Made by a program: the position numbers and the translations under genes
NCBI GenBank assembly: GCA_028291345.1
Contig: JAQGIF010000109.1
Location: 1-37,638 of the forward strand
Length of the DNA: 37,638 nt
DNA from: Rhodospirillales bacterium
GTDB taxonomy: Bacteria > Pseudomonadota > Alphaproteobacteria > BOG-932 > Roseiterribacteraceae
Reading direction: 5' to 3'
The notes under the pieces: model-generated
Told to the model about the DNA's origin: nothing
The model's database searches: none
What the model saw: only the letters and a program-made list of their open reading frames with translations
Shown: positions 1-14,206 of the stretch, piece by piece
Layout: each line of letters opens with the position of its first letter
Position numbering within the stretch: position 1 is the stretch's first letter

Positions 1-101
1 ACGATCGGCCGCCCGCTGCGCAACTCAGCGGCGGCGCGGTCGAAGGCGATATGCACCGCGCTGTCGAGCAGGCCGGCGAAATCAGCGGATGATGTACTCA
101 C
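1..101 (-). CDS. N-terminus of a GTP cyclohydrolase II-like protein (partial)
   Basis: The minus strand is open from a GTG at 101 to the left edge, about 33 codons. The encoded stretch contains FDRAAAELRSGRPI, which resembles the N-terminal helix of alphaproteobacterial GTP cyclohydrolase II (RibA), the enzyme opening the GTP imidazole ring to make the pyrimidine used for riboflavin and deazaflavins. No catalytic residue is visible because the gene is cut. The call leans on this short match and on the divergent neighbour, a RibD reductase domain that acts two steps later on the same intermediate. The GTG is the most upstream start I could place. Any other protein with a similar amphipathic N-terminus remains possible. 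Confidence 0.45.
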   Translation of the reverse strand, partial: MSTSSADFAGLLDSAVHIAFDRAAAELRSGRPI

Positions 102-331
102 GTGGTTAGCCTCTGGCCGTAGGAACGGCGCTGTATGGTCCGTACTTGCAATGGGCGATGCTGTGGGTCATAGCGAAAGACGTCTGACAACCGTGTTTTT
201 GGCGGAACTAGTTTCCTGTAACTAAATTATGCGGGTTCGCCAAATTACTAAGGCCCTGCGAGCAAATTTTAGCGATCGAAACCTCGGAGTGATCCAGAAT
301 TTCCAGCGACCGCGATACTACCGAACAGACG

Positions 332-1123
332 ATGTGGCCTGAACTTCTAAAGCTTGCTGCCGGGCATGACATCGTCCGTCCGGTGGATACGGAAGCCGGA
401 CGGTCGTTCTGGGACCTGTATGCTCCAATTGCCTGCGGTAATGGCCGTTCGCCGTTCGTGGTGGGGCAGTTGGGCCAATCCCTGGACGGGCGAATCGCCA
501 CCCCCACCGGGCGTTCGCATTATATCAACGGGCCGGAATCGATCCGGCATCTGCATTGCCTCCGTGCGCTCGTCGATGCGGTGATCGTCGGAATCGGAAC
601 GGTGGTGGCCGACGATCCGCAGCTGACGGTACGAAAGGTCGAGGGGCGAGATCCTGCGCGGGTCGTGATCGATCCGAACGGCCGCCTGCCGCCTGACGCC
701 AGAATCCTGGCGGATGACGGTTGCCCGGTCTTCGTCGTGCAGGGATGCGACCGACCGCGCCCGAGCTGGGTGACGCCGATCACCGTGCAGCCGCGCGAGG
801 GTAATCTCGTTCCCGCCGCCATCGTTGCTGCGCTGGCTGATCGGGGGTTCAGGCGGCTGCTGGTCGAGGGTGGGGCGGGAACGGTATCCGGGTTTCTCGC
901 CGCCAGGGCGATCGATCGGCTCCATCTCTGCATCGCACCGATCGTCATCGGGTCAGGACCAATAGGCATCACCCTGCCGCCGATAGATGAATTACACCAT
1001 GCCATTAGGCCACAAACCTCAGTCCATAGATTGGGCATGGACATGCTGTTCGATTGCCTGTTGGAACCGCGGGCGGCCGCTTTCGCGGCAGATTCATTGC
1101 AGTTGGATGGCGTCGAGCGCTGA
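332..1123 (+). CDS. RibD C-terminal-domain reductase (5-amino-6-ribosylaminouracil reductase type)
   Basis: 263 residues forming a stand-alone RibD_C (dihydrofolate-reductase-like) domain. Visible blocks are GQLGQSLDGRIATPTG near residue 45, the ALVDAVIVGIGTVVADDPQL segment typical of RibD and related pyrimidine reductases, VVIDPNGRLP, and LLVEGGAGTVSGFL near residue 180 (the conserved EGG of the NADPH-binding region). The N-terminal deaminase domain of bifunctional RibD is absent. The family reduces the ribose of 5-amino-6-ribosylaminouracil phosphate to ribityl with NADPH. The gene diverges from a GTP cyclohydrolase II-like gene and its 3' end overlaps the convergent glycosyltransferase gene by about 30 bp. 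It could serve riboflavin, deazaflavin or a dedicated secondary pathway; the neighbours favour the last. Confidence 0.8.
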   Translation: MWPELLKLAAGHDIVRPVDTEAGRSFWDLYAPIACGNGRSPFVVGQLGQSLDGRIATPTGRSHYINGPESIRHLHCLRALVDAVIVGIGTVVADDPQLTVRKVEGRDPARVVIDPNGRLPPDARILADDGCPVFVVQGCDRPRPSWVTPITVQPREGNLVPAAIVAALADRGFRRLLVEGGAGTVSGFLAARAIDRLHLCIAPIVIGSGPIGITLPPIDELHHAIRPQTSVHRLGMDMLFDCLLEPRAAAFAADSLQLDGVER

Positions 1124-2158
1124 AGCGACTTGCGCCGCGGTGTCGTTCCAACCCGCCAGCTCGAGAGCGGCTTTCGCGGCGCCGGTAGCGAGCGTTTCGC
1201 GATATGCTGGATCGCCCAGTAGATGCCGCAATGCCGCCGCCAAGGCCACTGGATCACCCGGCGGAACCAGTATGCCGGCGTACTCGGGCACTAAATCGGG
1301 AATCGCGCCTGCATTTGCCGCGACTACGGGAAGCCGGTAAGCGAGCGCTTCGGCAATCGCCATGCCATAGCCCTCGTAGCGGCTGGATGAAATGAGGACG
1401 TCCGCCGCCCGGTAAAGCGGATCCAGGTCGCTTACCTCACCTGTGAGGGTAATAAGGTAATCCATTGAATATTTTGAAATAAGTTCCCTAAGATTAGCAG
1501 TGGTCTCAGGCGATCGAGCAAGGCTTCCCGCGATGGTGCAACGCCATTCCAAGTCGGTGATGAGCGCCAGACTTTCGACCAGAATGTCATAAGCCTTACG
1601 TGGAATCACCGTTCCGACCGACAGGAGATGGGGCACCGGATTGCGGGGGCGAGGGTAGGGACCTGGCTTATGAATTCCGGGCTTGGCCACGGTGACCGGC
1701 GTTTCGCCGATGTCGTAATCCGCGCGCAACGTTGCGGCGGTCAGTTCGCTGGTCACAATGATCGCACGAACATGGGCCAGAGCCTGCCGTTCCGAGGCCG
1801 CCAGGCTTCGTGCCGTATTCGGCGAAAGGCCGGACTCCAGCGCCAGCGGATGGTGGACGAGCGCCGCGAGGTTCAATCTTTGCGCCGCCGCCGCCGCCAC
1901 ATCCGGCAACACGCCGAATGCCAGCCCGTCGATGAGGACCAGCGCGCCATCCGGGCACACGGCCAGGCTCTCGGCGGCGATTTGGATATCGGCGGGGGAC
2001 GGGAAGGGAAAGGAGGTGGGCCACGCTATATGCTCGACTTCCCATCCCATGCGCCGCAGCTCGGCCATCATCTGCTTGTCATAGATTGTGCCGCCGGTGC
2101 GGGTGTCGATGTCGCCGGGTATCGCGAACCAGAGCTTACGCGCCAATCGCGGCTTCAT
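1094..2158 (-). CDS. GT4-family glycosyltransferase
   Basis: 354 residues with a GT-B fold signature. The N-terminal Rossmann strand is followed by TRTGGTIYDKQM (acceptor side). The C-terminal half has SVGTVIPRKAYDILVESL, then the EX7E nucleotide-sugar motif in RYEGYGMAIAEALAYRLPVV, then GILVPPGDPVALAAAL. I chose the ATG at 2158 because homology begins there; the longer frame to 2263 would run inside the upstream PTPS-like gene. The start overlaps the end of that gene by about 20 bp, so translation is probably coupled. GT4 enzymes are retaining and use UDP- or GDP-sugars. A cyanobacterial GT4 enzyme glucosylates tetrahydrobiopterin, so with a PTPS-like neighbour a pterin or pyrimidine acceptor is a reasonable but unproven inference. 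No signal peptide is seen. Confidence 0.85.
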   Translation of the reverse strand: MKPRLARKLWFAIPGDIDTRTGGTIYDKQMMAELRRMGWEVEHIAWPTSFPFPSPADIQIAAESLAVCPDGALVLIDGLAFGVLPDVAAAAAQRLNLAALVHHPLALESGLSPNTARSLAASERQALAHVRAIIVTSELTAATLRADYDIGETPVTVAKPGIHKPGPYPRPRNPVPHLLSVGTVIPRKAYDILVESLALITDLEWRCTIAGSLARSPETTANLRELISKYSMDYLITLTGEVSDLDPLYRAADVLISSSRYEGYGMAIAEALAYRLPVVAANAGAIPDLVPEYAGILVPPGDPVALAAALRHLLGDPAYRETLATGAAKAALELAGWNDTAAQVASALDAIQLQ

Positions 2159-2540
2159 ACCAAGCCTTGGCGATATGCGATTCGTTGAGGGTGACGCGGA
2201 TGCGGTTGATGCCGCCGGCATGGGGGCCGAGTTCGCAGCTGCGGACCGCCTCTGCCATCGCATCGAAAATATGGCGGGCCAGGAATTCGGTCGTGGTCAC
2301 CTTGCCAGCGAAGGTAGGATACTCGTCGAGATTGGCGTAGTTGAGTGCGTGCAGCGTCTGTTTGAGCGCATCGGTCGCGCGGCCGATATCGACGACGATA
2401 TTGTCTGGGTCGAGTTCCTCACGGAAAAAAGCAACGTCGACGACATAGGTCGCGCCGTGCAGGCGCTGGGCCGGGCCGAATACCGCGCCGTTCAGGCTAT
2501 GGGCGATCATGATGTGATCGCGGACTTCTACGGCGTACAT
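2136..2540 (-). CDS. 6-pyruvoyl-tetrahydropterin synthase / QueD-like protein with altered active site
   Basis: 134 residues, the usual length of the PTPS/QueD (6-carboxytetrahydropterin synthase) family, which converts dihydroneopterin triphosphate. The fold is recognisable from the start MYAVEVRDHIMIAHSL, the RLHGATYVVDV strand, VVDIGRATDALK, LNYANLDEYP, TTTEFLARHIF and the C-terminal LNESHIAKAWY. The active site is unusual. His14 and His28 occupy zinc-ligand positions, but the third ligand of the canonical HGH motif is Ala30. The catalytic Cys that normally precedes the motif (CxxLHGH) is not there; the local sequence is FGPAQRLHGA. Glu in LNESH is retained. The gene lies between the MDR gene (12 bp upstream) and the GT4 gene (overlapping). 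Membership of the fold is secure; the normal reaction is doubtful. Confidence 0.85.
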   Translation of the reverse strand: MYAVEVRDHIMIAHSLNGAVFGPAQRLHGATYVVDVAFFREELDPDNIVVDIGRATDALKQTLHALNYANLDEYPTFAGKVTTTEFLARHIFDAMAEAVRSCELGPHAGGINRIRVTLNESHIAKAWYEAAIGA

Positions 2541-2552
2541 GCTTACTCCTGC

Positions 2553-3536
2553 TTAAGAATATCGGATGAGATGACAGAGCGCACCAGGCGCACCGAGGAT
2601 TTCCGGTAGGCGCGCCGGCACCTCGGCGAAAGGTGTTTCATCCGCGACCAGCACATCCAGGCGCGGGTCGGCGCACAATGATAGTGCTTTCGACAGGCGC
2701 CGCCGATGGTCCCAGCGCGCACGGCGTGCGGGCGACACGGTGCCGACTTGCGACGACAGAATGGTCAGGCGCTGACTGTGGAACGCGCCGCCAAGCTCCA
2801 CCATGACCGGCTGCGAGCCATACCAGCTCATCTCGATAATTGTGGCCTCCAAGCCCGCCAGCGACAAAGCAAGCTGCAGGCCCTCGCCGGTGCCCGAGGC
2901 GTGGAAGACGAGGTCGCAGCCGGACGGCAAAGCTTCTGCCGGAGTCGCGAAGCTTATGTCGAGTGCGTCGGCCGTATGCCGCCGATCGGGGTTGATGTCG
3001 ATCAGCGTCACCTCAGCGCCCGGCAGGCGGGCGCACAAATAGGCAAGCAGGCAGCCGGCAACGCCGCCGCCGACGATGGCGATGCGGTCGCCGATGCGGG
3101 GGGCGGCATCCCAGATCGCGTTCATCGCGGTTTCCATCTGCGCCGCCAGAACAGCGCGCTCATCGGATACCGCGTCGGGGATCAGGATCGCGGAGGCAGC
3201 CGGAATCGCAAAGCGGCTCTGATGCGGATACAGGCAGAAGACCCGCTCGCCGTTGCGATCCGCCGGGCCGTGTTCGATCCGGCCTACCATCGCGTAACCG
3301 TACTTCACGGGATAAGGAAATTCGCCGTCCTGGAACGGGCAGCGCATGCGCGTCCATTCGCTCTTGGGTACCTTTCCATGGAAAACGAGGGACTCCGTGC
3401 CGCGGCTGATACCGCTGGTCAGCGCCTTGACGTGAAGCGTGTTGTCGTCAGCCGGCGGCAAGCTTGCCGGGCGCAGCTCTGCCAAGGCCGGACCTGTAAT
3501 CCAAAGCGCCTGCGGTTTGGGGGATGAGTCTTGCAT
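2553..3536 (-). CDS. MDR-family (zinc-type alcohol dehydrogenase-like) oxidoreductase
   Basis: 327 residues of medium-chain dehydrogenase fold. The N-terminal GroES-like half carries SGISRGTESLVFHGKVP and FPYPVKYGYAMVGRIEHG; the Rossmann half carries IAIVGGGVAGCLLAYL (GxGxxG) followed by VTLIDINPDRR, an acid that suggests NAD(H). The usual catalytic Cys of zinc MDRs is replaced in the SRGTE segment and the four-Cys structural zinc lobe is absent, so it may not be a classical alcohol dehydrogenase. The ATG at 3536 is chosen because the upstream in-frame extension would overlap the divergent glycosyltransferase gene. It is first in a minus-strand unit with the PTPS-like and GT4 genes. I recall this subfamily as a recurrent neighbour of such PTPS-like genes; that is memory, not a search. 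Confidence 0.8.
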   Translation of the reverse strand: MQDSSPKPQALWITGPALAELRPASLPPADDNTLHVKALTSGISRGTESLVFHGKVPKSEWTRMRCPFQDGEFPYPVKYGYAMVGRIEHGPADRNGERVFCLYPHQSRFAIPAASAILIPDAVSDERAVLAAQMETAMNAIWDAAPRIGDRIAIVGGGVAGCLLAYLCARLPGAEVTLIDINPDRRHTADALDISFATPAEALPSGCDLVFHASGTGEGLQLALSLAGLEATIIEMSWYGSQPVMVELGGAFHSQRLTILSSQVGTVSPARRARWDHRRRLSKALSLCADPRLDVLVADETPFAEVPARLPEILGAPGALCHLIRYS

Positions 3537-3582
3537 GGAGTATCTATAGCTCGCTCTTCCCACGGCCTGTAACACATTGCCC

Positions 3583-5343
3583 ATGTCCGACGCGATCCTA
3601 CCTGTTGCCAAGTCAACGACGAACGCCACTGATTCCGGATTAGCCGGCCGTCGTTGGGTCTTCTTTGCCTTGAACGCCGCCAGCATGACCGCGCTCGCCG
3701 GGGTCATGATCGATGTGCTCGCGGCGCGAGGATGGTCCTACGCTTCAGCATTGTTTTTGCTGCTGTTTCTAGTCGGCTTGCCCTGGACGCTGATCGGTTT
3801 CTGGAATTCCGCCGTCGGTTTCGTGATCCTGCGCCTCACAGCAGATCCGGTCGGATATACCAACGCGGCGATACGCCTCACGGTAAAGGGCAGTCTGATC
3901 ACGACGCGCACCGCGATCTGTCTCGCCGTGCGGCATGAGGATGTGGGGCTGGTTTTCGCCCGGCTGGATTCGATGATCCGCAGCGTGGCGGCGACGCCAT
4001 GGGCCGATGCTTTCGATTTTCATGTTCTGAGCGACAGCGCCCGGCCGGACATCGTCGCGGCCGAGGAACAGGCCTTCGCAGAACTGGTGACCGGCCACCC
4101 GCGCGGGGCGTTCCTGCAATATCGCCGGCGAGCCCTGAATACCGGTTTCAAAGCCGGCAATCTGCATGAGTTCGCGGCGCGGGAGCAGGGCAGGTACGAC
4201 CATATGATCGTGCTCGATGCCGACAGCGTCATGTCGGCGGCTGCCATGCTGCGGCTGGTGCGTGCCATGCAGGCCAATCCGTCTTTGGGCATTCTTCAGA
4301 CACTCGTCGTCGGCCAGCCGTCGGGCAGCGCCTTTACTCGAATATTCCAGTTCGGCATGCGCCAGTCGATGCGGACCCAGACAGTGGGCAGCGCGTGGTG
4401 GCAGGGGCCGGCAGGGCCCTATTGGGGGCATAACGCCATCATCCGGATAAGGCCGTTCGTCGATCACTGCATCCTGCCGGTCCTGCCCGGGCGCGGGCCG
4501 CTCAGCGGGCAAATTCTCAGTCACGACCAGCTCGAAGCGGCGATGATCCGCGGTGCCGGTTACGATGTGCGGGTTATCGCCGACGAGTTCGAAAGTTGGG
4601 AAGAAAATCCGCCCAACCTGCCGGATTTCATCAAGCGCGATCTGCGCTGGTGTCAGGGCAATATGCAATATCTGAAGCTACTGCGGATGCCGGGGCTTAA
4701 GCCCATGGGCCGATTCCAACTGGTCAACGCGATCATGATGTATGCCGGGGCACCGGCCGGGCTTCTGATGCTGCTGGACGGCCTGGCGATGATCGGCGAC
4801 GGCAGCAGGTCTTCGGCCCCGGCGGCTCTCGCTTTCGCGCTGTATTTCGTGATGCTGAGTTTGGGTTTCGCGCCGCGCCTACTCGGAACGCTGGACATTC
4901 TTTTGCAGCCCGGCCGACGGCGGCTTTACGGCGGAACCGTTCGGCTGCTGGCCGGCGGGTTCCTGGATATGCTGTTCTCGCTGTTGCTCGGGCCCGTCAT
5001 GATGATCGCGCAGGCGATATTCGTCGGTGGCCTGATCTTCGGCCGTCGGGTGATCTGGGAGGCGCAGAATCGTGACGGACGCATTGTACGGGTCAGCGAA
5101 GCCCTGCACGGGTTGTGGCCCCAGGCACTGTTCGGCCTAGCTGTGGCCGGAGTGCTGACCATCTATGCACCGAGTGTCCTGCCATGGGCCGCGCCCACGA
5201 TTTTGCCTTGCCTGTTCGGCATTCCATTCACATGTTTGACGGCGGGCACGGGGCTCGGCCGTTTCTTCGTTCGCCACCGGATCTGTGCGATACCGGACGA
5301 ATATGCGCCGCCCCCTGCCGTCACGATTTCTCAAAACGGGTGA
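3583..5343 (+). CDS. OpgH/MdoH-like membrane glycosyltransferase (GT2)
   Basis: 586 residues. Two N-terminal membrane segments (about residues 25-50 and 55-85) precede a cytoplasmic GT2 domain. The domain has the NTGFKAGNLHEF segment, the DxD-type MIVLDADSVM, PYWGHNAIIR, LSHDQLEAAM (catalytic acid region) and the RDLRWCQGN form of the QxxRW motif. Several further membrane helices fill the C-terminal third. This layout matches glucan glucosyltransferase H (OpgH/MdoH), which polymerises glucose from UDP-glucose while moving it across the inner membrane, although E. coli OpgH is considerably longer. The ATG at 3583 was preferred to the in-frame TTG at 3577. It diverges from the MDR gene with 46 bp between starts. 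No opgG lies beside it, so the product may not be an osmoregulated periplasmic glucan. Confidence 0.85.
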   Translation: MSDAILPVAKSTTNATDSGLAGRRWVFFALNAASMTALAGVMIDVLAARGWSYASALFLLLFLVGLPWTLIGFWNSAVGFVILRLTADPVGYTNAAIRLTVKGSLITTRTAICLAVRHEDVGLVFARLDSMIRSVAATPWADAFDFHVLSDSARPDIVAAEEQAFAELVTGHPRGAFLQYRRRALNTGFKAGNLHEFAAREQGRYDHMIVLDADSVMSAAAMLRLVRAMQANPSLGILQTLVVGQPSGSAFTRIFQFGMRQSMRTQTVGSAWWQGPAGPYWGHNAIIRIRPFVDHCILPVLPGRGPLSGQILSHDQLEAAMIRGAGYDVRVIADEFESWEENPPNLPDFIKRDLRWCQGNMQYLKLLRMPGLKPMGRFQLVNAIMMYAGAPAGLLMLLDGLAMIGDGSRSSAPAALAFALYFVMLSLGFAPRLLGTLDILLQPGRRRLYGGTVRLLAGGFLDMLFSLLLGPVMMIAQAIFVGGLIFGRRVIWEAQNRDGRIVRVSEALHGLWPQALFGLAVAGVLTIYAPSVLPWAAPTILPCLFGIPFTCLTAGTGLGRFFVRHRICAIPDEYAPPPAVTISQNG

Positions 5344-7387: not shown

Positions 7388-8056
7388 TCAGAAATCGAGA
7401 TCCGCATAATGGGCAGGCGGCTGAACGCCGGGCACGCGGTCGGCCAGCAAGGGGCGGAAGCTGGGCCGGGACTTGATGCGGACGAACCAGTCCTTGGCGC
7501 CGGGGTGGTCCTCCCACGGTACATCGCCGATATAATCGACGACCGACAGATGGGCGGCGGCCACGATATCGGCTGCCGAGAAATGGTCGCCGGCCAGCCA
7601 GCGTCGCCGTTCGGCCAGGAACGAGATATAAGCCAGATGATTGTGGATCTCAGTCAGCCCCGTCCGGATGGCCGTCGCCTGCGGATAACCCTGGCCCGAC
7701 AGGCGCTTCATCAGCTTCTCGCCGACCAGGTTGTCGGTGACCTCGGCGTTGAACTTGACATCGAACCACTGGGTCAGCCGCCGCGCCTCCGCGCGGCTGT
7801 TCGAATCGCCGCCGATCAGCGAACGTTCGGGATAGGCCTCATCGAGATATTCGGAGATGACCCTGCTGTCGGCGAAAATCGCCCCGTCCAGCTCGATCAG
7901 AACCGGCACTTCGCAGGCCGGGTTCATCGACAGGAATTCGCTGCGCCTGTCCCACACTTTTTCGACTTCCAGCTCGAATGGAAGGGCTTTTTCCACCAGC
8001 ATCACGCGGATCGCGCGTGAAAATGGGGACAATTGGAAGTGATACAGTGTGCGCAT
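7388..8056 (-). CDS. Glutathione S-transferase family protein
   Basis: 222 residues. The N-terminal thioredoxin-like domain begins MRTLYHFQLSPFSRAIRVML, with Ser/Tyr candidates for thiolate activation, then the cis-Pro segment CEVPVLIELDG and the glutathione-binding FADSRVISEYLDEA. A helical C-terminal domain contains WLAGDHFSAADIVAAAHLSV, the usual N-capping box of GSTs. It is cytoplasmic and probably conjugates glutathione or isomerises a substrate, but the class cannot be set from the sequence. It starts 28 bp after the end of cofC and so probably belongs to the same transcript as the F420 genes. No known F420 step needs a GST; it may belong with the catabolic genes at the head of the run. 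Confidence 0.85.
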   Translation of the reverse strand: MRTLYHFQLSPFSRAIRVMLVEKALPFELEVEKVWDRRSEFLSMNPACEVPVLIELDGAIFADSRVISEYLDEAYPERSLIGGDSNSRAEARRLTQWFDVKFNAEVTDNLVGEKLMKRLSGQGYPQATAIRTGLTEIHNHLAYISFLAERRRWLAGDHFSAADIVAAAHLSVVDYIGDVPWEDHPGAKDWFVRIKSRPSFRPLLADRVPGVQPPAHYADLDF

Positions 8057-8084: not shown

Positions 8085-8729
8085 TCAAGGAAAAGCGCAA
8101 CCCGAAGATGCCGCAAGCCTCGGAATTGTTTCACGTTTGATGTCTTCCATCTGCTCGAAATCGTCCGGCGTGTCGATGTCGAACGACAACCCCGCCTTCC
8201 GGACGACGCTCAAAGCCAGCCCGGCGGCGCGGGCGGCCGCCTGATGGGCGGCGAAGCTGCCCAGGCCGTAAAGATAGGGGATGGCGCCGACCGGCGACAT
8301 GACCAGGGCGTTGGTGCCGGTGCCCTCCCTGTCGCTGGCAATCGCCAAGCCCTGGCTTTCGCGCGCGGCATTCAGCAACGCGCGGAGGTCATCGGGAATC
8401 AAAAACGGCAAGTCGCAGCTGACCGAGAGCACCGTGGTCGCTCCGTGTAGGCGAACGACCTCCGCCGCCTGCGTCAACGCCGCGTTGAGGCCGTACGGCG
8501 CGGTTTCGGCGAGGGTTTCGAATTCCATCGCCCGGGCGGTTGCGAGCAGCGTCTCGGATCGGCTGACCACCAGCGTGTGGTCCCGGCCGACGACCGCGGC
8601 GGCGACCCGCAACGTTTGTTGAAAGAAGTTCTGATTCAGCCTTTGCCGTTCCGCGGCGGTCAGCGCGTCCGCAAGGCGCGATTTGCCCTCTTCCAGCGGT
8701 CGGGCCGGGATGATCGCCCAGATGCTCAT
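8085..8729 (-). CDS. cofC: CofC, phospholactate/phosphoenolpyruvate guanylyltransferase of F420 biosynthesis
   Basis: 214 residues of nucleotidyltransferase fold. The N-terminal MSIWAIIPARPLEEGKSRLA matches the CofC/FbiD P-loop-like start with the KSRL motif. TVLSVSCDLPFLIPDDLRAL gives the metal-binding Asp region, and GTGTNALVMSP and LSFDIDTPDDFEQM are characteristic. CofC activates 2-phospholactate, phosphoenolpyruvate or 3-phosphoglycerate with GTP to give the unstable guanylated donor used by CofD. The ATG at 8729, 10 bp after the cofD stop, is chosen over the in-frame extension to 8816, which lies inside cofD. A nitroreductase domain gene in the same operon favours phosphoenolpyruvate as substrate, since the dehydro-F420 then formed needs reduction; this is inference. 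Confidence 0.92.
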   Translation of the reverse strand: MSIWAIIPARPLEEGKSRLADALTAAERQRLNQNFFQQTLRVAAAVVGRDHTLVVSRSETLLATARAMEFETLAETAPYGLNAALTQAAEVVRLHGATTVLSVSCDLPFLIPDDLRALLNAARESQGLAIASDREGTGTNALVMSPVGAIPYLYGLGSFAAHQAAARAAGLALSVVRKAGLSFDIDTPDDFEQMEDIKRETIPRLAASSGCAFP

Positions 8730-8739
8730 GCCACAATGC

Positions 8740-9690
8740 TCACGATATGGACTTGCCTTGGGACAGCCGTTCGGCGAAGGCCAAAACTTCAGCGGCAACG
8801 CGGCGGCGGTCGTCACTGTTTCGCATCATCGTGTCCCTGACCAGTATAGCTGGCCCCTTGATATCGGATGACAAGCCGGCGTCAACCGCGTCGATCATCA
8901 ACCCGTCGAGCAGCGTATCATAGAAAGCCGCCACACCCAGCGACGATACGGCGATGCCGAGCTCATTCATGATCTTGGCGGCCGGACCTTTCACCGCCTG
9001 CCCACCGACGATCGGCGACACGGCGATGAGCGGCACTCTGCGATGTTCCAACGCATCGCGCACCCGCGGCAGCGACAGGATCGGCAGGATACTGAGAAAC
9101 GGGTTGGACGGGCAGATGACGATCGCGGTGAGTTCCGATGAAGAGAGTGCCGCCATGAAACCCGCACTCGGCTTCATATTTTCGATACCGGGAAACTCCA
9201 GCCGTTCGACCCGCGGGGCGCAGCGCAGCCTGACGAAATAATCCTGGAATGCGAGCAGGCCCCGGTCGGTCGCCACCATCGTGCGCAACGGATCGTCGGA
9301 GACCGGGACGATATGCTGCCTGATGCCCAACCGTGTGGCGAAATCGGCGGTGACGGTGGATAGCGTTTCGGTCTTGAGACGGCGAGTGCGCTCGATATGG
9401 GTGGCGATATCAAGGTCGCCCAACCGGAACCAAGTATCGCCGCCCAGCCGTTCCAGCGCGCCGATAAAGTTCCAGGTTTCGCCGGCCAAACCCCAGCCTT
9501 GCTCCTGATTATTGAGGCCGGCCAGGGTGTAGGTGACCGTGTCGATGTCGGGCGAGATCCGGAGGCCCAGATGCTCGAAATCGTCGCCGGTATTGACCGC
9601 GACGGTCAGCTCGCCGGGCGGCAGGATCGCTGCCAAGCCTTCCGCAAGCTTCGCGCCGCCCACGCCGCCGGCCAGGGCCAGGATGCTCAT
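8740..9690 (-). CDS. cofD: CofD, 2-phospho-L-lactate (or enolpyruvyl) transferase
   Basis: 316 residues, the family length. Motifs in order: LAGGVGGAKLAEGL at the N-terminus, AVNTGDDFEHLGLRISPDID (FO and metal binding), GETWNFIGALERLGGDTWF with DLDIATHIERTRRL, VICPSNPFLSILPIL, and VSPIVGGQAVKGPAAKIM. CofD (FbiA) transfers the phospho-acyl group from the guanylated donor to FO, giving F420-0 or dehydro-F420-0. The ATG start overlaps the stop of the nitroreductase-domain gene by 4 bases (ATGA) and the stop lies 10 bp before cofC, so the three are translationally linked. Nothing is missing. Confidence 0.96.
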   Translation of the reverse strand: MSILALAGGVGGAKLAEGLAAILPPGELTVAVNTGDDFEHLGLRISPDIDTVTYTLAGLNNQEQGWGLAGETWNFIGALERLGGDTWFRLGDLDIATHIERTRRLKTETLSTVTADFATRLGIRQHIVPVSDDPLRTMVATDRGLLAFQDYFVRLRCAPRVERLEFPGIENMKPSAGFMAALSSSELTAIVICPSNPFLSILPILSLPRVRDALEHRRVPLIAVSPIVGGQAVKGPAAKIMNELGIAVSSLGVAAFYDTLLDGLMIDAVDAGLSSDIKGPAILVRDTMMRNSDDRRRVAAEVLAFAERLSQGKSIS

Positions 9691-10340
9691 GGCAGTTTGA
9701 TTCCGGTCACAATTTCAGCCAGCGGTTTCCGTTCGCGAACCCGGCCAGGTTCGGCCGGCCAGCCGAGCAGCATCAAGCCCTGCGGTTGCCAGGACGCCGG
9801 CAATTCCAGCGCGGCCTTAACCGTATCGGCGCAGAAGAGCGGGGCGCACATCCAGCAGGCGCCGAGACCTTCGACCTGGGCCTTGAGCAGCAATAATTGC
9901 GCCGCCATCGCCGTGCTTTGCACCGCCATCAGATATTCGGCGTCGTTCCGGCGTGAATCTTGATAGGTGTCCATGTCCTCGAGCGTCAGGCAGACGGCGA
10001 TCAGGGCCGGCGCGCCGTTGATACGCGCGGATGAGCGGGCGACGTCTTGGCGGATGGCTTCGCTGTCGTCGCCATCCTTGGAGCGGTCGGCCCGCAGCCT
10101 GTCGCCCATTGCCGTAGCCAGACGCGCCTTGTTCGGCGCGTCGCGCACGACGTGGAAGCGCCAGGGTTGCCGGTTATGGGCCGAGGGGGCACGGCTTGCC
10201 GCCTGGACCATTCCGGCGATCATCGCATCCGGAACGGGATCGGGCAGAAAGCGGCGGACCGTACGACGCCCGGCGATTACGGAATCCAGGTCGTAGAATC
10301 CGTCCTGGGTCCGGGGCGATTTGCCGTGGACTAGCGAAAT
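9687..10340 (-). CDS. FbiB C-terminal-type nitroreductase domain, start codon unclear
   Basis: The frame encodes a nitroreductase/FMN-binding domain. The N-terminal FMN motif AGRRTVRRFLPDPVP (about 10230-10277) is followed by QAASRAPSAHNRQPWRFHVV and, later, AAQLLLLKAQVEGLGACWM and LMLLGWPAEP. The first ATG, at 10223, falls after the FMN motif. The frame is open to 10367 but holds no ATG, GTG or TTG upstream of that ATG; an ATT at 10340 overlaps the cofE stop. In actinobacterial FbiB this domain is fused behind CofE and reduces dehydro-F420-0. Here it lies in the -1 frame immediately after cofE. A non-standard start, a frameshift-made fusion, or a sequence error would each explain it. The coordinate 10340 is a working choice. 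Confidence 0.8.
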   Translation of the reverse strand: MSLVHGKSPRTQDGFYDLDSVIAGRRTVRRFLPDPVPDAMIAGMVQAASRAPSAHNRQPWRFHVVRDAPNKARLATAMGDRLRADRSKDGDDSEAIRQDVARSSARINGAPALIAVCLTLEDMDTYQDSRRNDAEYLMAVQSTAMAAQLLLLKAQVEGLGACWMCAPLFCADTVKAALELPASWQPQGLMLLGWPAEPGRVRERKPLAEIVTGIKLP

Positions 10341-11104
10341 AGATCGATCTCCTTCGGGCGGATCAGCTCATGGGCGTTGCCCTCGCGCCGCGCATAGGGG
10401 ACGCCACGTGCCAGCACGATCGGCCAGCCTTCGCTCGACTGTCCCATCACCAATGATGCGGCCGAGGCGAGCTCGTCGGCAAGACCCAACTCGCTGGTTT
10501 TGAGCGGGCGGCCGAACAGGTCCGGCTTGGTACGCAAATCGAGCAATCCCGCCATGCCGCTGAGGCCGATGGCGGTGCCGACAGTGCCATTGCGCCATGC
10601 ACGGCCTATGCTGTCGATTATCAGAACGGCGATGTCGATCCCGGTCCGCGCCTTCAGATCGTCGCGGATGCGATCGCAGGTACCGTCGGGGTCGCGCGGC
10701 AGCAGCAGGACGCGTTCGTCCTCTTCGCCATTGCCGATGTTGGACTGGTCGATACCGGCATTGGCGGCGACGAAGCCCAGCCGATGAGCGACGATGATCG
10801 CGCCCGGCCTGATGCGCAGAACCTCGTCGGATTCGGACAGGATCAGTTCGACGACGCGTGGGTCCTTATCGGACTGAGCGCCGATTTCGATCGCTCTGGC
10901 CGAGGGCTCGATTGTGCTGAGTTCGACCAAACAACCTTCGGCCTTTGACACGATCTTCTGCGCCAGAACGACGACGTCGCCGGCCTGCAGCGCCAGGCCG
11001 GATTCGGCCAGCGCAGTCAAGATGATGCCGGTTAGATCGTCACCCGCTTTGACTAGGGGCACGCCATCGAGAGCGCGAAGCGTCAACTCCGCGGGAGCGG
11101 ACAT
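10331..11104 (-). CDS. cofE: CofE, coenzyme F420-0:L-glutamate ligase
   Basis: 257 residues. Conserved parts include the N-terminal LRALDGVPLVKAGDDL, VVLAQKIVSKAEG (GTP/metal region), DPRVVELILSESDEVLR, GFVAANAGIDQSN and VLIIDSIGRAWRNGTVGTAIG, all typical of CofE and of the FbiB N-terminal domain. The enzyme adds one or more gamma-linked glutamates to F420-0 using GTP. The ATG at 11104 is 2 bp from the npdG stop. The protein ends ...KEIDLFR then TAG, which is where FbiB fusions pass into the linker before the nitroreductase domain; that domain follows here in the -1 frame. Confidence 0.95.
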   Translation of the reverse strand: MSAPAELTLRALDGVPLVKAGDDLTGIILTALAESGLALQAGDVVVLAQKIVSKAEGCLVELSTIEPSARAIEIGAQSDKDPRVVELILSESDEVLRIRPGAIIVAHRLGFVAANAGIDQSNIGNGEEDERVLLLPRDPDGTCDRIRDDLKARTGIDIAVLIIDSIGRAWRNGTVGTAIGLSGMAGLLDLRTKPDLFGRPLKTSELGLADELASAASLVMGQSSEGWPIVLARGVPYARREGNAHELIRPKEIDLFR

Positions 11105-11106
11105 GG

Positions 11107-11781
11107 TCAGTCCTGCTCGGGCAGGCCGGTGATGCGAATACCCGACCCTGGAATGTTATAGCGCTGGTTGATCGAGATCAGCACCGAGGTCAGGGCCTCA
11201 GCGACGACGGAATTGCAGAGAGGGCCGGCATGAAGGCCGCGCAGCCCGACAGCCTTGGCCAGTGTGATGACGGCTTCGCGGGCGGTAATATCGTCCCCCG
11301 TGACCAGCACGTCGCATTCGACCGTATGGGACAGGTCCTTCAGGTGATGGGCCGAGACGTTCTGGAAGGCCGAGACGACTTTGACGCCGGTTCCCAGCAT
11401 CTTCTGTACGGCCTCGACCGCCGAGCCTTCGGGCGGCAACTGAACCCGGTTTACCTTGGGCGGAACCAGAGGGACCGTGACATCGACCAGGATCTTGCCT
11501 TCCAGGGCACTCGCCACGTCCGAGACGGTCGGCTTCTGCGCCGAATAAGGCACCGTCAGTACGACGATCTGCGCTTCTTTCGCAGCGCTCAGATTATCCA
11601 TCCCGCGCACCAGTTCTTTGCCCAGGAGCGTGTTCAGTTCGGCGGCGCCGGCCTGCGCCTTCTCCGCAGAGCGGCTGCCTAGGATAACCGGATAGCCGGC
11701 ATAGGCCCAGCGGAAGGCCAACCCGCTGCCCTCGGCGCCGGTGCCGCCTAAAACGGCTAAAGTCGGTAACGAATCTGTCAT
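11107..11781 (-). CDS. npdG: NADPH-dependent F420 reductase (F420H2:NADP+ oxidoreductase)
   Basis: 224 residues, the family size. The Rossmann motif LAVLGGTGAEGSGLAFRWA is followed by ILGSRSAEKAQ, whose Ser-Arg pair binds the 2'-phosphate of NADP. VVLTVPYSAQKPTV and KVVSAFQNVSAHHL (F420 side) and the C-terminal GLHAGPLCNSVVAEALTSVL agree with Fno/NpdG. It moves hydride between NADPH and F420. It lies 25 bp after fbiC and 2 bp before cofE, inside the biosynthetic operon, so the cell can both make and reduce the cofactor. No F420-dependent enzyme of the luciferase-like or split-barrel class occurs in the window. Confidence 0.93.
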   Translation of the reverse strand: MTDSLPTLAVLGGTGAEGSGLAFRWAYAGYPVILGSRSAEKAQAGAAELNTLLGKELVRGMDNLSAAKEAQIVVLTVPYSAQKPTVSDVASALEGKILVDVTVPLVPPKVNRVQLPPEGSAVEAVQKMLGTGVKVVSAFQNVSAHHLKDLSHTVECDVLVTGDDITAREAVITLAKAVGLRGLHAGPLCNSVVAEALTSVLISINQRYNIPGSGIRITGLPEQD

Positions 11782-11806
11782 CGGATGCTCTTCTGGTCGA
11801 TTTGAG

Positions 11807-14206
11807 TCAGGCGTTCGCGGACTGCTTGCGCCGGATCGGCTTGGGTGGTGTCAAGATGATTGGCGTCAGTTCTTCGGCGACGCGGCCTGCCGCATGGCGT
11901 TCATCGGAAACGGGGCCGTAGACGGTATTACGCTGCCTCGGCGTCCGGCCGAGCGAGCGGATAAGCGCCTCCATTTCCAGCGGCGGCAGCTCCTGGCCAT
12001 GCTCGGTGCCGGCGGCGCGCGAAATGCTCTCATTCATCAAGGTGCCGCCCATGTCGTTGGCGCCGGCCTCGAGGCAGACCCGCACGCCCTCGCGGCCGAG
12101 CTTCACCCAGGACACTTGGATGTTCGTCAGCACGGGATTCAACGCCAGGCGGGCGACGGCATGCATCAGCACGGTCTCGCGGAAGGTCGGTCCCTTGCGC
12201 GCCGTGCCCTTGAGGTACATTGGCGCTTCCATATGGACGAAGGGCAGGGGCACGAACTCGGTGAAGCCGCCCGTGCGCGCCTGCAGCGCGCGGATGCGCA
12301 GCAGATGCCGTGCCCAGTGTTTCGGTTCCTCGATATGGCCGAACATGATCGTCGCCGTCGTATGGAAGCCGACTTTATGGGCGGCTTCCATGATGTCGAG
12401 CCATTCCTGGGTATTCAGCTTGTCGTGGCACAGGGTGTCGCGGATCTCATCATCGAGGATTTCCGCCGCCGTACCGGGGAGGGTGCCCAGCCCCGCTTCC
12501 TTCAGCCTGACCAGATAGTCGGCCACGGGCATGGCCAAGGTGGCCGCGCCCTGCTGAACCTCGAGCGACGAGAACGCGTGGATATGCATATCCGGAACGG
12601 CGCGCTTCACCGTGCGGCAGAGTTCGATATAGGTCTCGCCGGTATAGTCCGGGTGGATGCCGCCCTGCATGCAGACTTCGGTCGCGCCGAGATCCCAGGC
12701 CTCCACCGCGCGGCGCGCGACTTCCGAAAGGTCGAGATCGTAGGGAACCCCGCGCAAGGCTTCGTGGGTCTTCCCCTTGGAGAAGGCGCAGAAGCGGCAT
12801 TTATAGCCGCAGATATTGGTGTAGTTGATGTTGCGATTGACGGCATAGGTGACGACGTCGCCATTGATCTTGGTGCGCAGCCGGTTGGCCGCGTCCGTCA
12901 CATATTCGAAATCGACGCCGCGCGCGCCGAACAGGGTGGTGATCTCACCTTCGTCGAGCCCCGCACCGCTGACGGCTTTGGCAACCAGATCGACGACGAT
13001 GGGGTCCGGCCGCTCGCCGGGGCCCGCCTTGGCGGGCGCGATCGGTGTCACGGCGATGCCCGGCGCCCAGGAATCGTTGCGGCCCCAGCCGTGCGAGTCC
13101 GCCGATTGCAGGATGCGCGGGATCAGAGCCGGGTCCTGCCAGCGGGGATTGTCGTGGTAATAGGCCGGATAGATCGGCAGGCGGGCTGTCAGGATCTTGC
13201 CGGCGCTCGCGGTTTCGCGGCGCAATGCCTCGAGATGCGGCCATGGCGCCTCGGGATTCACATGGTCGAGCGTGACCGGCGATATGCCGCCCCAGTCGTT
13301 GATCCCGGCCTCGATCAGCACGCCATATTCGCCGGGGCTCAGATTGGGCGGCGCCTGGATGTTCATCTCCGCACCCAGCAGGATACGCGCGACGGCAATT
13401 GTCCAGAGCAGTTCGTTGAGATCCGGTTCCGGCGCGTCCGCCATCCGCGTTCCCGGCTTGGCCCGGAAATTCTGGATGATGACTTCCTGGATATGGCCGT
13501 ATTGCCGGTGCAGGTCGCGCAGCGCGAGGATCGACTCGATCCGCTCCTCCCGCGTTTCGCCGATGCCAATCAATATGCCGGAAGTGAAGGGGACGCTCTG
13601 CTCGCCGGCCAGCCGAATCGTTTCCAGCCGCCGCGACGGCAGCTTGTCGGGCGAGCCGTAATGCGGCCCGCCTTTCTGCGACAGCCGCTCGGACGCGCTT
13701 TCGAGCATCAACCCCTGACTAACCGAGACGCGCTTGAGCAGGGCGATGTCATCGGCGCCCATGACCCCGGCATTGATGTGCGGCAGCAGGCCCGTCTCCT
13801 TCAGGACGAGCCCGGCGGCCTCGGCGAGGTAGGAGAAGGTGGTTTCGTGACCGAGCCGGGCCAGCTCGTCTCGTGCCGCGCCATAGCGCAGTTCAGGCTT
13901 GTCGCCCAAGGTGAACAGGGCTTCGGTGCAGCCGGCGGCGGCGCCGGCACGGGCGACGGTCAGCACTTCATCGATGGTCATGTACCCCGTCTCGCCACGC
14001 TTGGGCGGGCGGGCGAAGGTACAATAATGGCAGACATCCCGGCACAGATGGGTCAGCGGGATGAACACCTTGGGCGAATAGCTTTGTATGCGCCCGTGGA
14101 AGCCGTCGCGCAGCGAGGCAGCGCGCGTCATCAGCGCGTCGAGTTCTGCTCCTACGAGATTCCCAAACTCAAGCGAGATGGGCTCATCCGATATTGCGAC
14201 ATTCAT
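11807..14206 (-). CDS. fbiC: FbiC, 7,8-didemethyl-8-hydroxy-5-deazariboflavin (FO) synthase
   Basis: 799 residues carrying two radical SAM modules. The N-terminal CofG-type half has CRDVCHYC (Cys55, Cys59, Cys62) and the C-terminal CofH-type half has CGYKCRFC (Cys466, Cys470, Cys473). HDNPRWQDPALIPRI marks the end of the CofG half, and GGIHPDYTGETYIEL and FVPLPFVHMEAPMY the CofH half. FbiC joins tyrosine with 5-amino-6-ribitylaminouracil to make the deazaflavin FO. The fused form is typical of actinobacteria, whereas archaea and cyanobacteria have separate CofG and CofH. The ATG at 14206 follows an AGGTGA-like site. It lies 54 bp downstream of the SDR gene and leads the F420 genes proper. Confidence 0.96.
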   Translation of the reverse strand: MNVAISDEPISLEFGNLVGAELDALMTRAASLRDGFHGRIQSYSPKVFIPLTHLCRDVCHYCTFARPPKRGETGYMTIDEVLTVARAGAAAGCTEALFTLGDKPELRYGAARDELARLGHETTFSYLAEAAGLVLKETGLLPHINAGVMGADDIALLKRVSVSQGLMLESASERLSQKGGPHYGSPDKLPSRRLETIRLAGEQSVPFTSGILIGIGETREERIESILALRDLHRQYGHIQEVIIQNFRAKPGTRMADAPEPDLNELLWTIAVARILLGAEMNIQAPPNLSPGEYGVLIEAGINDWGGISPVTLDHVNPEAPWPHLEALRRETASAGKILTARLPIYPAYYHDNPRWQDPALIPRILQSADSHGWGRNDSWAPGIAVTPIAPAKAGPGERPDPIVVDLVAKAVSGAGLDEGEITTLFGARGVDFEYVTDAANRLRTKINGDVVTYAVNRNINYTNICGYKCRFCAFSKGKTHEALRGVPYDLDLSEVARRAVEAWDLGATEVCMQGGIHPDYTGETYIELCRTVKRAVPDMHIHAFSSLEVQQGAATLAMPVADYLVRLKEAGLGTLPGTAAEILDDEIRDTLCHDKLNTQEWLDIMEAAHKVGFHTTATIMFGHIEEPKHWARHLLRIRALQARTGGFTEFVPLPFVHMEAPMYLKGTARKGPTFRETVLMHAVARLALNPVLTNIQVSWVKLGREGVRVCLEAGANDMGGTLMNESISRAAGTEHGQELPPLEMEALIRSLGRTPRQRNTVYGPVSDERHAAGRVAEELTPIILTPPKPIRRKQSANA

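Follow-up and report, generated by a model that had tools for sequence, protein, structure and literature searches.

A conserved gene cluster of riboflavin-type, pterin-type and glycosyltransferase genes in a Rhodospirillales bacterium: a possible pathway to a glycosylated product

Introduction

The DNA analysed here, called the window, is an entire contig (C10; 37,638 nucleotides; GenBank JAQGIF010000109.1, assembly GCA_028291345.1) from a Rhodospirillales bacterium whose genome (G000) comprises 5.63 Mb in 401 contigs and is 97% complete. The first 5343 bases carry genes for a RibA-like GTP cyclohydrolase II, a RibD reductase, a family 4 glycosyltransferase (GT4), a protein related to 6-pyruvoyl tetrahydropterin synthase (PTPS), a medium-chain dehydrogenase/reductase (MDR) and an OpgH-like membrane glycosyltransferase of family 2 (GT2). 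With about even confidence, it is proposed that these genes encode a dedicated pathway leaving the first step of riboflavin synthesis, which would yield a glycosylated 2-amino-4-oxo-pyrimidine or pteridine and hand it to a membrane enzyme.

Among the closest described systems is the Streptomyces coelicolor cluster that includes SCO6650 and SCO6655, reportedly treated by Spoonamore, Bandarian and colleagues in 2006 and 2008, with the Streptomyces cluster discussed in 2006. The 2008 study of SCO6650 reportedly found neither zinc nor PTPS activity in the protein. The window PTPS is homologous to SCO6650, whose crystal structure (PDB 3d7j) it matches over 131 residues. The window departs from the S. 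coelicolor cluster by its RibD reductase and its OpgH-like GT2; creatininase and methyltransferase genes are absent from the window cluster. A plasmid of Streptomyces fungicidicus groups CDP-alcohol phosphotransferase, MDR, PTPS, GT4, methyltransferase, creatininase and RibA genes.

The window PTPS belongs to subfamily PTPS-IV of COG0720, described by its motif FGPAQ and by neighbours with PF00925 and PF01872 domains in AGeNNT (PMC5445326). Motif and neighbours are both common to the window, and the core neighbourhood is thus partly in print. The available part of that description names two neighbours and glosses PF00925 as FolE2, whereas an MDR, a GT4, a methyltransferase and two alternative membrane modules also occur here. 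The subfamily has a crystal structure, 3d7j, and no published function for it was found in the open-licence literature searched. Neither a named product for the gene set nor a description of its MDR, methyltransferase and membrane modules was found in that literature. The window represents an OpgH-type variant, in which no methyltransferase was detected, of a cluster already known but not yet explained.

Other systems resemble parts of the cluster. QueD and 6-pyruvoyl tetrahydropterin synthase share with the window PTPS the tunnelling fold (PF01242), the first two His of the zinc site and the Glu of the pterin site, whereas its third zinc His is Ala, the Asp-His pair is mostly Asn-Tyr in the subfamily, and its score is below the QueD cut-off. 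The GT2 passes two of the nine NCBIfam MdoH cut-offs matched and so resembles the glucan synthase OpgH/MdoH; in contrast to that enzyme, it has no OpgG/MdoG found in the genome and sits in a pterin-like cluster. As in the riboflavin pathway, the domains of GTP cyclohydrolase II and of the RibD reductase are intact, but the cluster RibD is without a deaminase, and the genome encodes riboflavin synthase, RibB and a full RibD outside the cluster. Finally, an analogy may be drawn with the cyanobacterial tetrahydrobiopterin glucosyltransferase pathway, in which a GT4-type enzyme acts on a pterin. The cyanobacterial glucoside route starts from GTP cyclohydrolase I, whereas in the cluster GTP cyclohydrolase II, together with a RibD reductase, would take that place.

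Organization of the cluster

The genes of the cluster lie in the window as follows.

1..101, minus strand: RibA-like GTP cyclohydrolase II, first 33 codons; remainder on contig C366 (L009:4420-5550, 376 aa)
332..1123, plus strand: RibD C-terminal reductase, 263 aa; PF01872 (137 bits) is the sole Pfam domain
1094..2158, minus strand: GT4 glycosyltransferase, 354 aa; PF13692 103 bits, PF00534 97 bits
2136..2540, minus strand: PTPS-IV tunnelling-fold protein, 134 aa; PF01242 79 bits; 3d7j at E 2e-43; motif FGPAQ
2553..3539, minus strand: MDR dehydrogenase, BchC-like; TIGR01202 51 bits, cut-off of 291 not reached
3577..5343, plus strand: OpgH/MdoH-like membrane GT2, 588 aa; passes NF003958 and NF003962 among nine MdoH models matched

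The MDR start was taken at 3539, the listed open reading frame start at 3707 being 56 codons too early compared with homologues, and the Met at 2158 was chosen as the GT4 start. MDR, PTPS and GT4 follow one another on one strand, with 12 bases between MDR and PTPS and 23 bases shared by PTPS and GT4, and form an apparent operon; the GT2 gene is divergent from MDR, and RibD converges on GT4. A preliminary description, made from the sequence alone, had placed a RibD reductase, a GT4, a PTPS-like protein, an MDR and an OpgH-like GT2 at 1-5343, and all of them were found. It had also counted a RibA-like gene, of which the window holds only a 33-codon stub because it begins at a contig edge; the gene is complete, with 376 codons, on contig C366, and the end of that contig is identical to the start of the window over 127 overlapping bases. 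In the sister genome G001 a single contig (L120) carries the order GT2, MDR, PTPS, GT4, RibD, RibA. The cluster is real and is no chance grouping.

Conservation of the cluster

The survey of the cluster covered 385 genomes belonging to the same class as the window, with MDR matches accepted at E up to 1e-20 and PTPS-like matches up to 1e-15. MDR and PTPS-like genes each occurred in 44 of these genomes, and the two lists are identical (Fisher p about 6e-59 over the 385 genomes, with relatedness ignored). In all but two of the 44, thus in 42 genomes, fewer than about 100 bases separate the two matches; in G038 they are on different contigs and in G235 they are separated by about 1.6 kb. A small methyltransferase encoded beside GT4 was recognized by its profile in 39 of the 385 genomes, all of them among the 44. 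The profile was unmatched in the other five cluster genomes, namely G000 and G001 as well as G056, G278 and G355.

Partner genes were counted at 43 class loci (the 44 cluster genomes minus the window's own) and at 80 named loci, the best of at least 590 confirmed MDR relatives and thus their top-scoring part. When the window genes were used as tblastn queries at the 80 named loci, GT4 was found at 68, RibD at 58, PTPS at 52, RibA at 38 and GT2 at 30; family profiles gave PTPS at 67, GT4 at 67 and RibA at 39. Profiles at the 43 class loci detected GT4 at 40, PTPS at 35, methyltransferase at 34, RibD at 32, RibA at 18, CDP-alcohol phosphotransferase at 10, GT2 at 9 and creatininase at 8, several of these counts being lower bounds, as overlapping reading frames compete and some contigs end early. 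The named rows span six phyla (Pseudomonadota, Actinomycetota, Acidobacteriota, Gemmatimonadota, Spirochaetota and Myxococcota). Conservation of the neighbours, on which the preliminary description had made a dedicated pathway depend, therefore extends well beyond the window's class.

PTPS-IV also matched 20 plasmid records in PLSDB. Seven plasmids were inspected, and in five of them the genes for MDR, PTPS, GT4 and an S-adenosylmethionine-dependent methyltransferase or a hypothetical protein are consecutive; of the remainder, the Palleronia plasmid has its GT4 a few genes off and one is unannotated. The cluster copy of Methylosinus trichosporium OB3b is on a plasmid and is of the MdoH type. 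Phage records gave no PTPS-IV match, and viral contigs no MDR relative.

Three loci (L160, L161 and L162) belong to genomes of 1.4-1.6 Mb with 26-28% guanine plus cytosine (GC), and keep RibA, RibD, methyltransferase, GT4, PTPS, MDR and creatininase together. A compact cluster in genomes of that size suggests a product worth its cost.

The PTPS-IV and MDR proteins

The FGPAQ signature occupies residues 21-25 of the window PTPS, and in 104 sequences its positions are F in 103, G in 103, P in 104, A in 103 and Q in 100. The PF00925 and PF01872 neighbours of the subfamily are both present at the window cluster. In contrast, the window protein is without the full set of three zinc His and the Cys-Asp-His triad of PTPS-I to III, at what we take to be the positions of these residues. 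By alignment to the genome's own QueD-type open reading frame, which itself is without the usual Cys, the first two zinc His are conserved and the third is Ala in 103 of the 104 sequences, the catalytic Asp position is Asn in 79, and the His position is Tyr in 70 or Phe in 21. Of the 104 sequences, 102 retain the pterin-site Glu (position 120), and the remaining two are gapped there. On the QueD model the window protein scored 41 bits against a cut-off of 89. The cluster copy is an extra one, since another PTPS/QueD-type protein is encoded on contig C159 of the same genome.

A structural model of the MDR (predicted local distance difference test score 92.8) has polyol and alcohol dehydrogenases as its nearest folds, at Z 28-31 with many rows tied, and the fold searches gave no substrate. 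Ser45 stands at the usual zinc Cys and Tyr82 at the zinc His in 123 of 123 rows each, with the positions assigned by motif rather than by residue-level structure alignment; the usual catalytic zinc ligands were not found there.

RibA, RibD and riboflavin supply

The cluster RibA scores 172 bits on PF00925 and 211 on NF001591 (cut-off 148), and falls below the TIGR00505 cut-off with 190 against 206. It retains the three zinc Cys, Arg94 and the switch Tyr105 (Escherichia coli numbering), and thus has the residues of a GTP cyclohydrolase II. The model of a relative at L040 shows the GTP cyclohydrolase II fold (Z 24.1, root-mean-square deviation 1.5 over 173 residues), with a RibB-like fold in its N-terminal half (Z 13.6, deviation 3.0 over 135 residues). 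The cluster RibA of the window genome has no PF00926 match and is missing the acidic motif, and a working 3,4-dihydroxy-2-butanone 4-phosphate synthase half was not recognized in it. The cluster RibD keeps conserved residues such as EGG. It is 263 aa long, has PF01872 only and is without the N-terminal zinc deaminase domain, so the 2-amino group of its substrate should stay.

Riboflavin synthase and RibB are encoded outside the cluster. For RibD, a second copy was found, a complete bifunctional deaminase-reductase on contig C153. For RibA, the only other PF00925 protein found in the genome is a ribE-linked RibBA (L004:835-1980, contig C233), which has an intact RibB half and N, S and R in place of the three zinc Cys, and which scores 69 bits on TIGR00505 against 206. 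The preliminary description had held a dedicated pathway unsupported if the cluster contained the only riboflavin genes of the genome; this is the case for an intact RibA and not for RibD. Plain housekeeping duplication of riboflavin genes is likewise rejected for RibD, given the full copy on C153, and not for RibA.

Many of the class genomes examined also have a RibBA of this degenerate type. In two genomes of the same family that are without the cluster (G003 and G004, 99-100% complete) it is the only type, with no GTP cyclohydrolase II found intact; these bacteria may depend on a different enzyme or on external riboflavin. Among the 22 further genomes searched, which include these two, G013 has likewise the degenerate type only, and G002 (65% complete) gave no match. 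An intact RibA is encoded away from MDR in nine cluster genomes (G138, G238, G319, G110, G177, G272, G150, G188 and G031); in G177 and G272 it adjoins a CDP-alcohol phosphotransferase gene.

The switch residue of RibA is Met in three and His in one of 57 rows. All four are actinobacterial and all have a creatininase; the window RibA differs from these four examined cluster RibAs in having Tyr. Met at this position presumably marks the SCO6655-type, formamidopyrimidine-forming cyclohydrolase. The idea that creatininase is an obligatory deformylase tied to the switch was only partly borne out, as 25 creatininase rows keep Tyr. A creatininase-family formamidase has been shown to deformylate in Sinorhizobium (PMC9478397), and by analogy the cluster creatininase, where present, may do the same.

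Alternative membrane modules

The gene for the last step appears to come in two types. Within 5 kb of MDR, 79 named loci (one of the 80 has no assigned MDR frame) carry the GT2 in 19 cases, a CDP-alcohol phosphotransferase in 38, both in none and neither in 22; the 5 kb rule leaves out of the GT2 count the OpgH-like genes of the Halomonas group, about 8 kb from MDR. A flippase-like LPG_synthase_TM protein lies within 8 kb in 29 of the 38 phosphotransferase loci and in none of the 19 GT2 loci. In the class, the phosphotransferase profile matched 24 of the 385 genomes, 22 of them among the 44; the matches without MDR are in G130 (74% complete) and G299 (weak). None of the 10 GT2-type class genomes, the window's included, has the phosphotransferase anywhere in the genome, compared with 22 of the 34 others (Fisher p 5e-4, relatedness ignored). 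By neighbourhood, the class has 10 GT2 loci, nine with phosphotransferase and none with both (p 0.09, relatedness ignored), with no flippase-like row. The mutual exclusion is suggestive, independent pairs being few. The phosphotransferase motif DxxDGxxAR...GxxxDxxxD, which we take to be the signature of that family, is invariant in 15 rows.

A true OpgGH operon was considered for the window and rejected, as G000 has no PF04349 (MdoG) match. MdoG was found in one of the 10 GT2-type genomes and in 14 of the 34 other cluster genomes. The database names 6-carboxytetrahydropterin synthase and MdoH, as applied to such loci, are thus unsupported, the first by the residues and the second by the missing partner. 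The OpgH-like genes of the Halomonas group are 31-34% identical to the window GT2 and often stand beside a family (f12) of which the single protein tested proved to be MdoG.

Proposed pathway and alternatives

The strict pairing of PTPS-IV with MDR, the methyltransferase specific to the cluster and the interchange of membrane modules together sketch a concrete pathway. RibA would open GTP to 2,5-diamino-6-ribosylamino-pyrimidinone 5'-phosphate, and the stand-alone RibD reductase would convert the ribosyl to a ribityl chain with the 2-amino group kept. Given the missing deaminase and the kept Glu, the ring should retain the 2-amino-4-oxo face that pterin-site proteins recognize, and the route would then run from GTP through the pyrimidinone and its ribityl form to PTPS-IV and MDR, to GT4 and to the membrane step. 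The zinc-altered PTPS-IV may bind the ring by its conserved Glu and assist ring closure or a side-chain rearrangement, while the zinc-less MDR could oxidize or reduce the side chain with NAD(P). GT4 would add a sugar. The dedicated methyltransferase probably also acts in most relatives; none was found in the window's genus. A membrane module would finish or export the product: here the OpgH-like GT2, elsewhere the CDP-alcohol phosphotransferase, often with the flippase-like protein. What the analysis shows is which genes these are, how they are conserved and co-occur, which residues are changed, and that the two membrane modules were not found together within 5 kb; the chemical steps and the sequence in which they occur, as well as the product and its cellular location, are inferred from family membership.

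The glycosylated pterin or pyrimidine put forward in the preliminary description remains the best guess for the product. The conserved neighbours and the extra RibD and PTPS copies support the preliminary interpretation, and the finding of no other intact RibA weakens it. It is probable that a compound widespread in bacteria has yet to be discovered.

Several observations weigh against a dedicated pathway of this kind. No intact GTP cyclohydrolase II other than the cluster RibA was found in the assembly; the cluster enzyme is therefore not provably dedicated and may also serve riboflavin. RibA was detected at only 18 of the 43 class loci, one of them with a weak match of 93 bits, and at 39 of the 80 named loci. 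A PF00925 search of 14 cluster genomes gave no intact RibA in three of them (G186, G207 and G231, 90-98% complete). Because an intact RibA lies elsewhere in nine cluster genomes and none was found intact in these three, RibA is best seen as a shared entry enzyme. Partners are few at L075, L083 and L105, and L088 has MDR alone. The actinobacterial genome loci have no RibD nearby, though a Microbacterium plasmid does have one. The named loci are the best-scoring portion of the relatives and not a random sample. On the tree, the GT2 needs seven changes, with three well-supported independent pairs, and the sign test is not significant.

A tentative extension of the proposed pathway, on the doubtful side, concerns the fate of the product. 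Bacteria of at least six phyla would make a hitherto undescribed class of envelope-attached glycosylated pteridine or ribityl-diaminopyrimidine, with GTP as the precursor and with GTP cyclohydrolase II, PTPS-IV and a RibD that has no deaminase as the enzymes. Two interchangeable membrane enzymes would join it either to a phospholipid through the CDP-alcohol phosphotransferase or to a glucan-type glycan through the orphan OpgH-like synthase.

Alternatively, the product could be a soluble, secreted antibiotic or signal resembling toxoflavin or another azapteridine, its pyrimidine supplied by RibA and RibD and then tailored by MDR, methyltransferase and GT4, with the membrane genes as exporters or bystanders. 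RibA and RibD homologues start toxoflavin synthesis, and patchy occurrence (44 of 385 genomes) and carriage on plasmids (the 20 PLSDB records) are often seen in antibiotic clusters. However, presence in low-GC genomes of 1.4-1.6 Mb and in six phyla fits a general function better, and the 17 recurrent neighbour families include no peptide or polyketide synthetase, so a secreted product of this kind is possible but rather doubtful.

It is unlikely that the genes form a second branch of riboflavin synthesis or flavin export, in which RibA is a housekeeping enzyme, the extra RibD raises flux, and PTPS and MDR act elsewhere. The sole intact GTP cyclohydrolase II found in the assembly would have a ready role in such a branch, and two riboflavin branches have been proposed in Sinorhizobium (PMC9478397). 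In the nine genomes with an intact RibA elsewhere, however, MDR and PTPS-IV, usually with GT4 and methyltransferase (by annotation), stay together. We also know of no role for PTPS-type proteins in riboflavin synthesis.

GT4 and PTPS occur near MDR with roughly equal frequency (GT4 at 40 and PTPS at 35 of the 43 class loci, and 67 each of the 80 named loci), as would be expected of an envelope glycolipid locus in which GT4, GT2, CDP-alcohol phosphotransferase and flippase act together and RibA, RibD and PTPS are regulatory or co-transferred and chemically unrelated. The invariant pair is instead MDR with PTPS-IV, while the membrane genes swap, which makes such a locus quite improbable.

F420 genes and other neighbours

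A set of F420 genes on one strand (8085-14206) encodes CofC, CofD, a protein like the C-terminal part of FbiB, CofE, NpdG and a bifunctional FbiC. CofH exceeded its cut-off in 59 of the 385 class genomes, comprising eight of the 44 cluster genomes (about 6.7 expected) and 51 of the 341 others (Fisher p 0.66), and F420 genes lie near the cluster in one of 123 other loci, that of G001 in the same genus. A 2016 review cites unpublished work that places PTPS-IV in archaeal F420 synthesis (PMC5041015); for the window's class, the lack of CofH co-occurrence speaks against such a role. The preliminary description had offered as an alternative that RibA and RibD supply 5-amino-6-ribitylaminouracil to the nearby FbiC, and although the cofC, cofD, cofE, npdG and fbiC genes are situated some 3-9 kb rightward of the cluster in the window and the review statement points the same way, this is very improbable, since CofH is independent of MDR and PTPS-IV, F420 genes are rarely near the cluster, and a deaminase-less RibD alone cannot yield the aminoribityluracil that FbiC needs.

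Between the cluster and the F420 genes, positions 7388-8056 encode a glutathione-S-transferase-like protein near the FzlA FtsZ-binding family (293 bits against a cut-off of 300). Cytochrome b561-like genes recur near the cluster (L058:16336-16893; L168:12011-12544), as does family 14, of which the one protein tested is YceI-like and which is near it in 11 of the 43 class loci; both hint at a connection with membrane redox chemistry. On contig C366, past RibA (L009:172-4401), are genes for a CMAS-type methyltransferase, a DUF1295 protein, a flavin amine oxidase and a DUF1365 protein, a set that we take to belong to responses to light and singlet oxygen. The CMAS, DUF1295 and oxidase genes are also found further along the same contig in G001.

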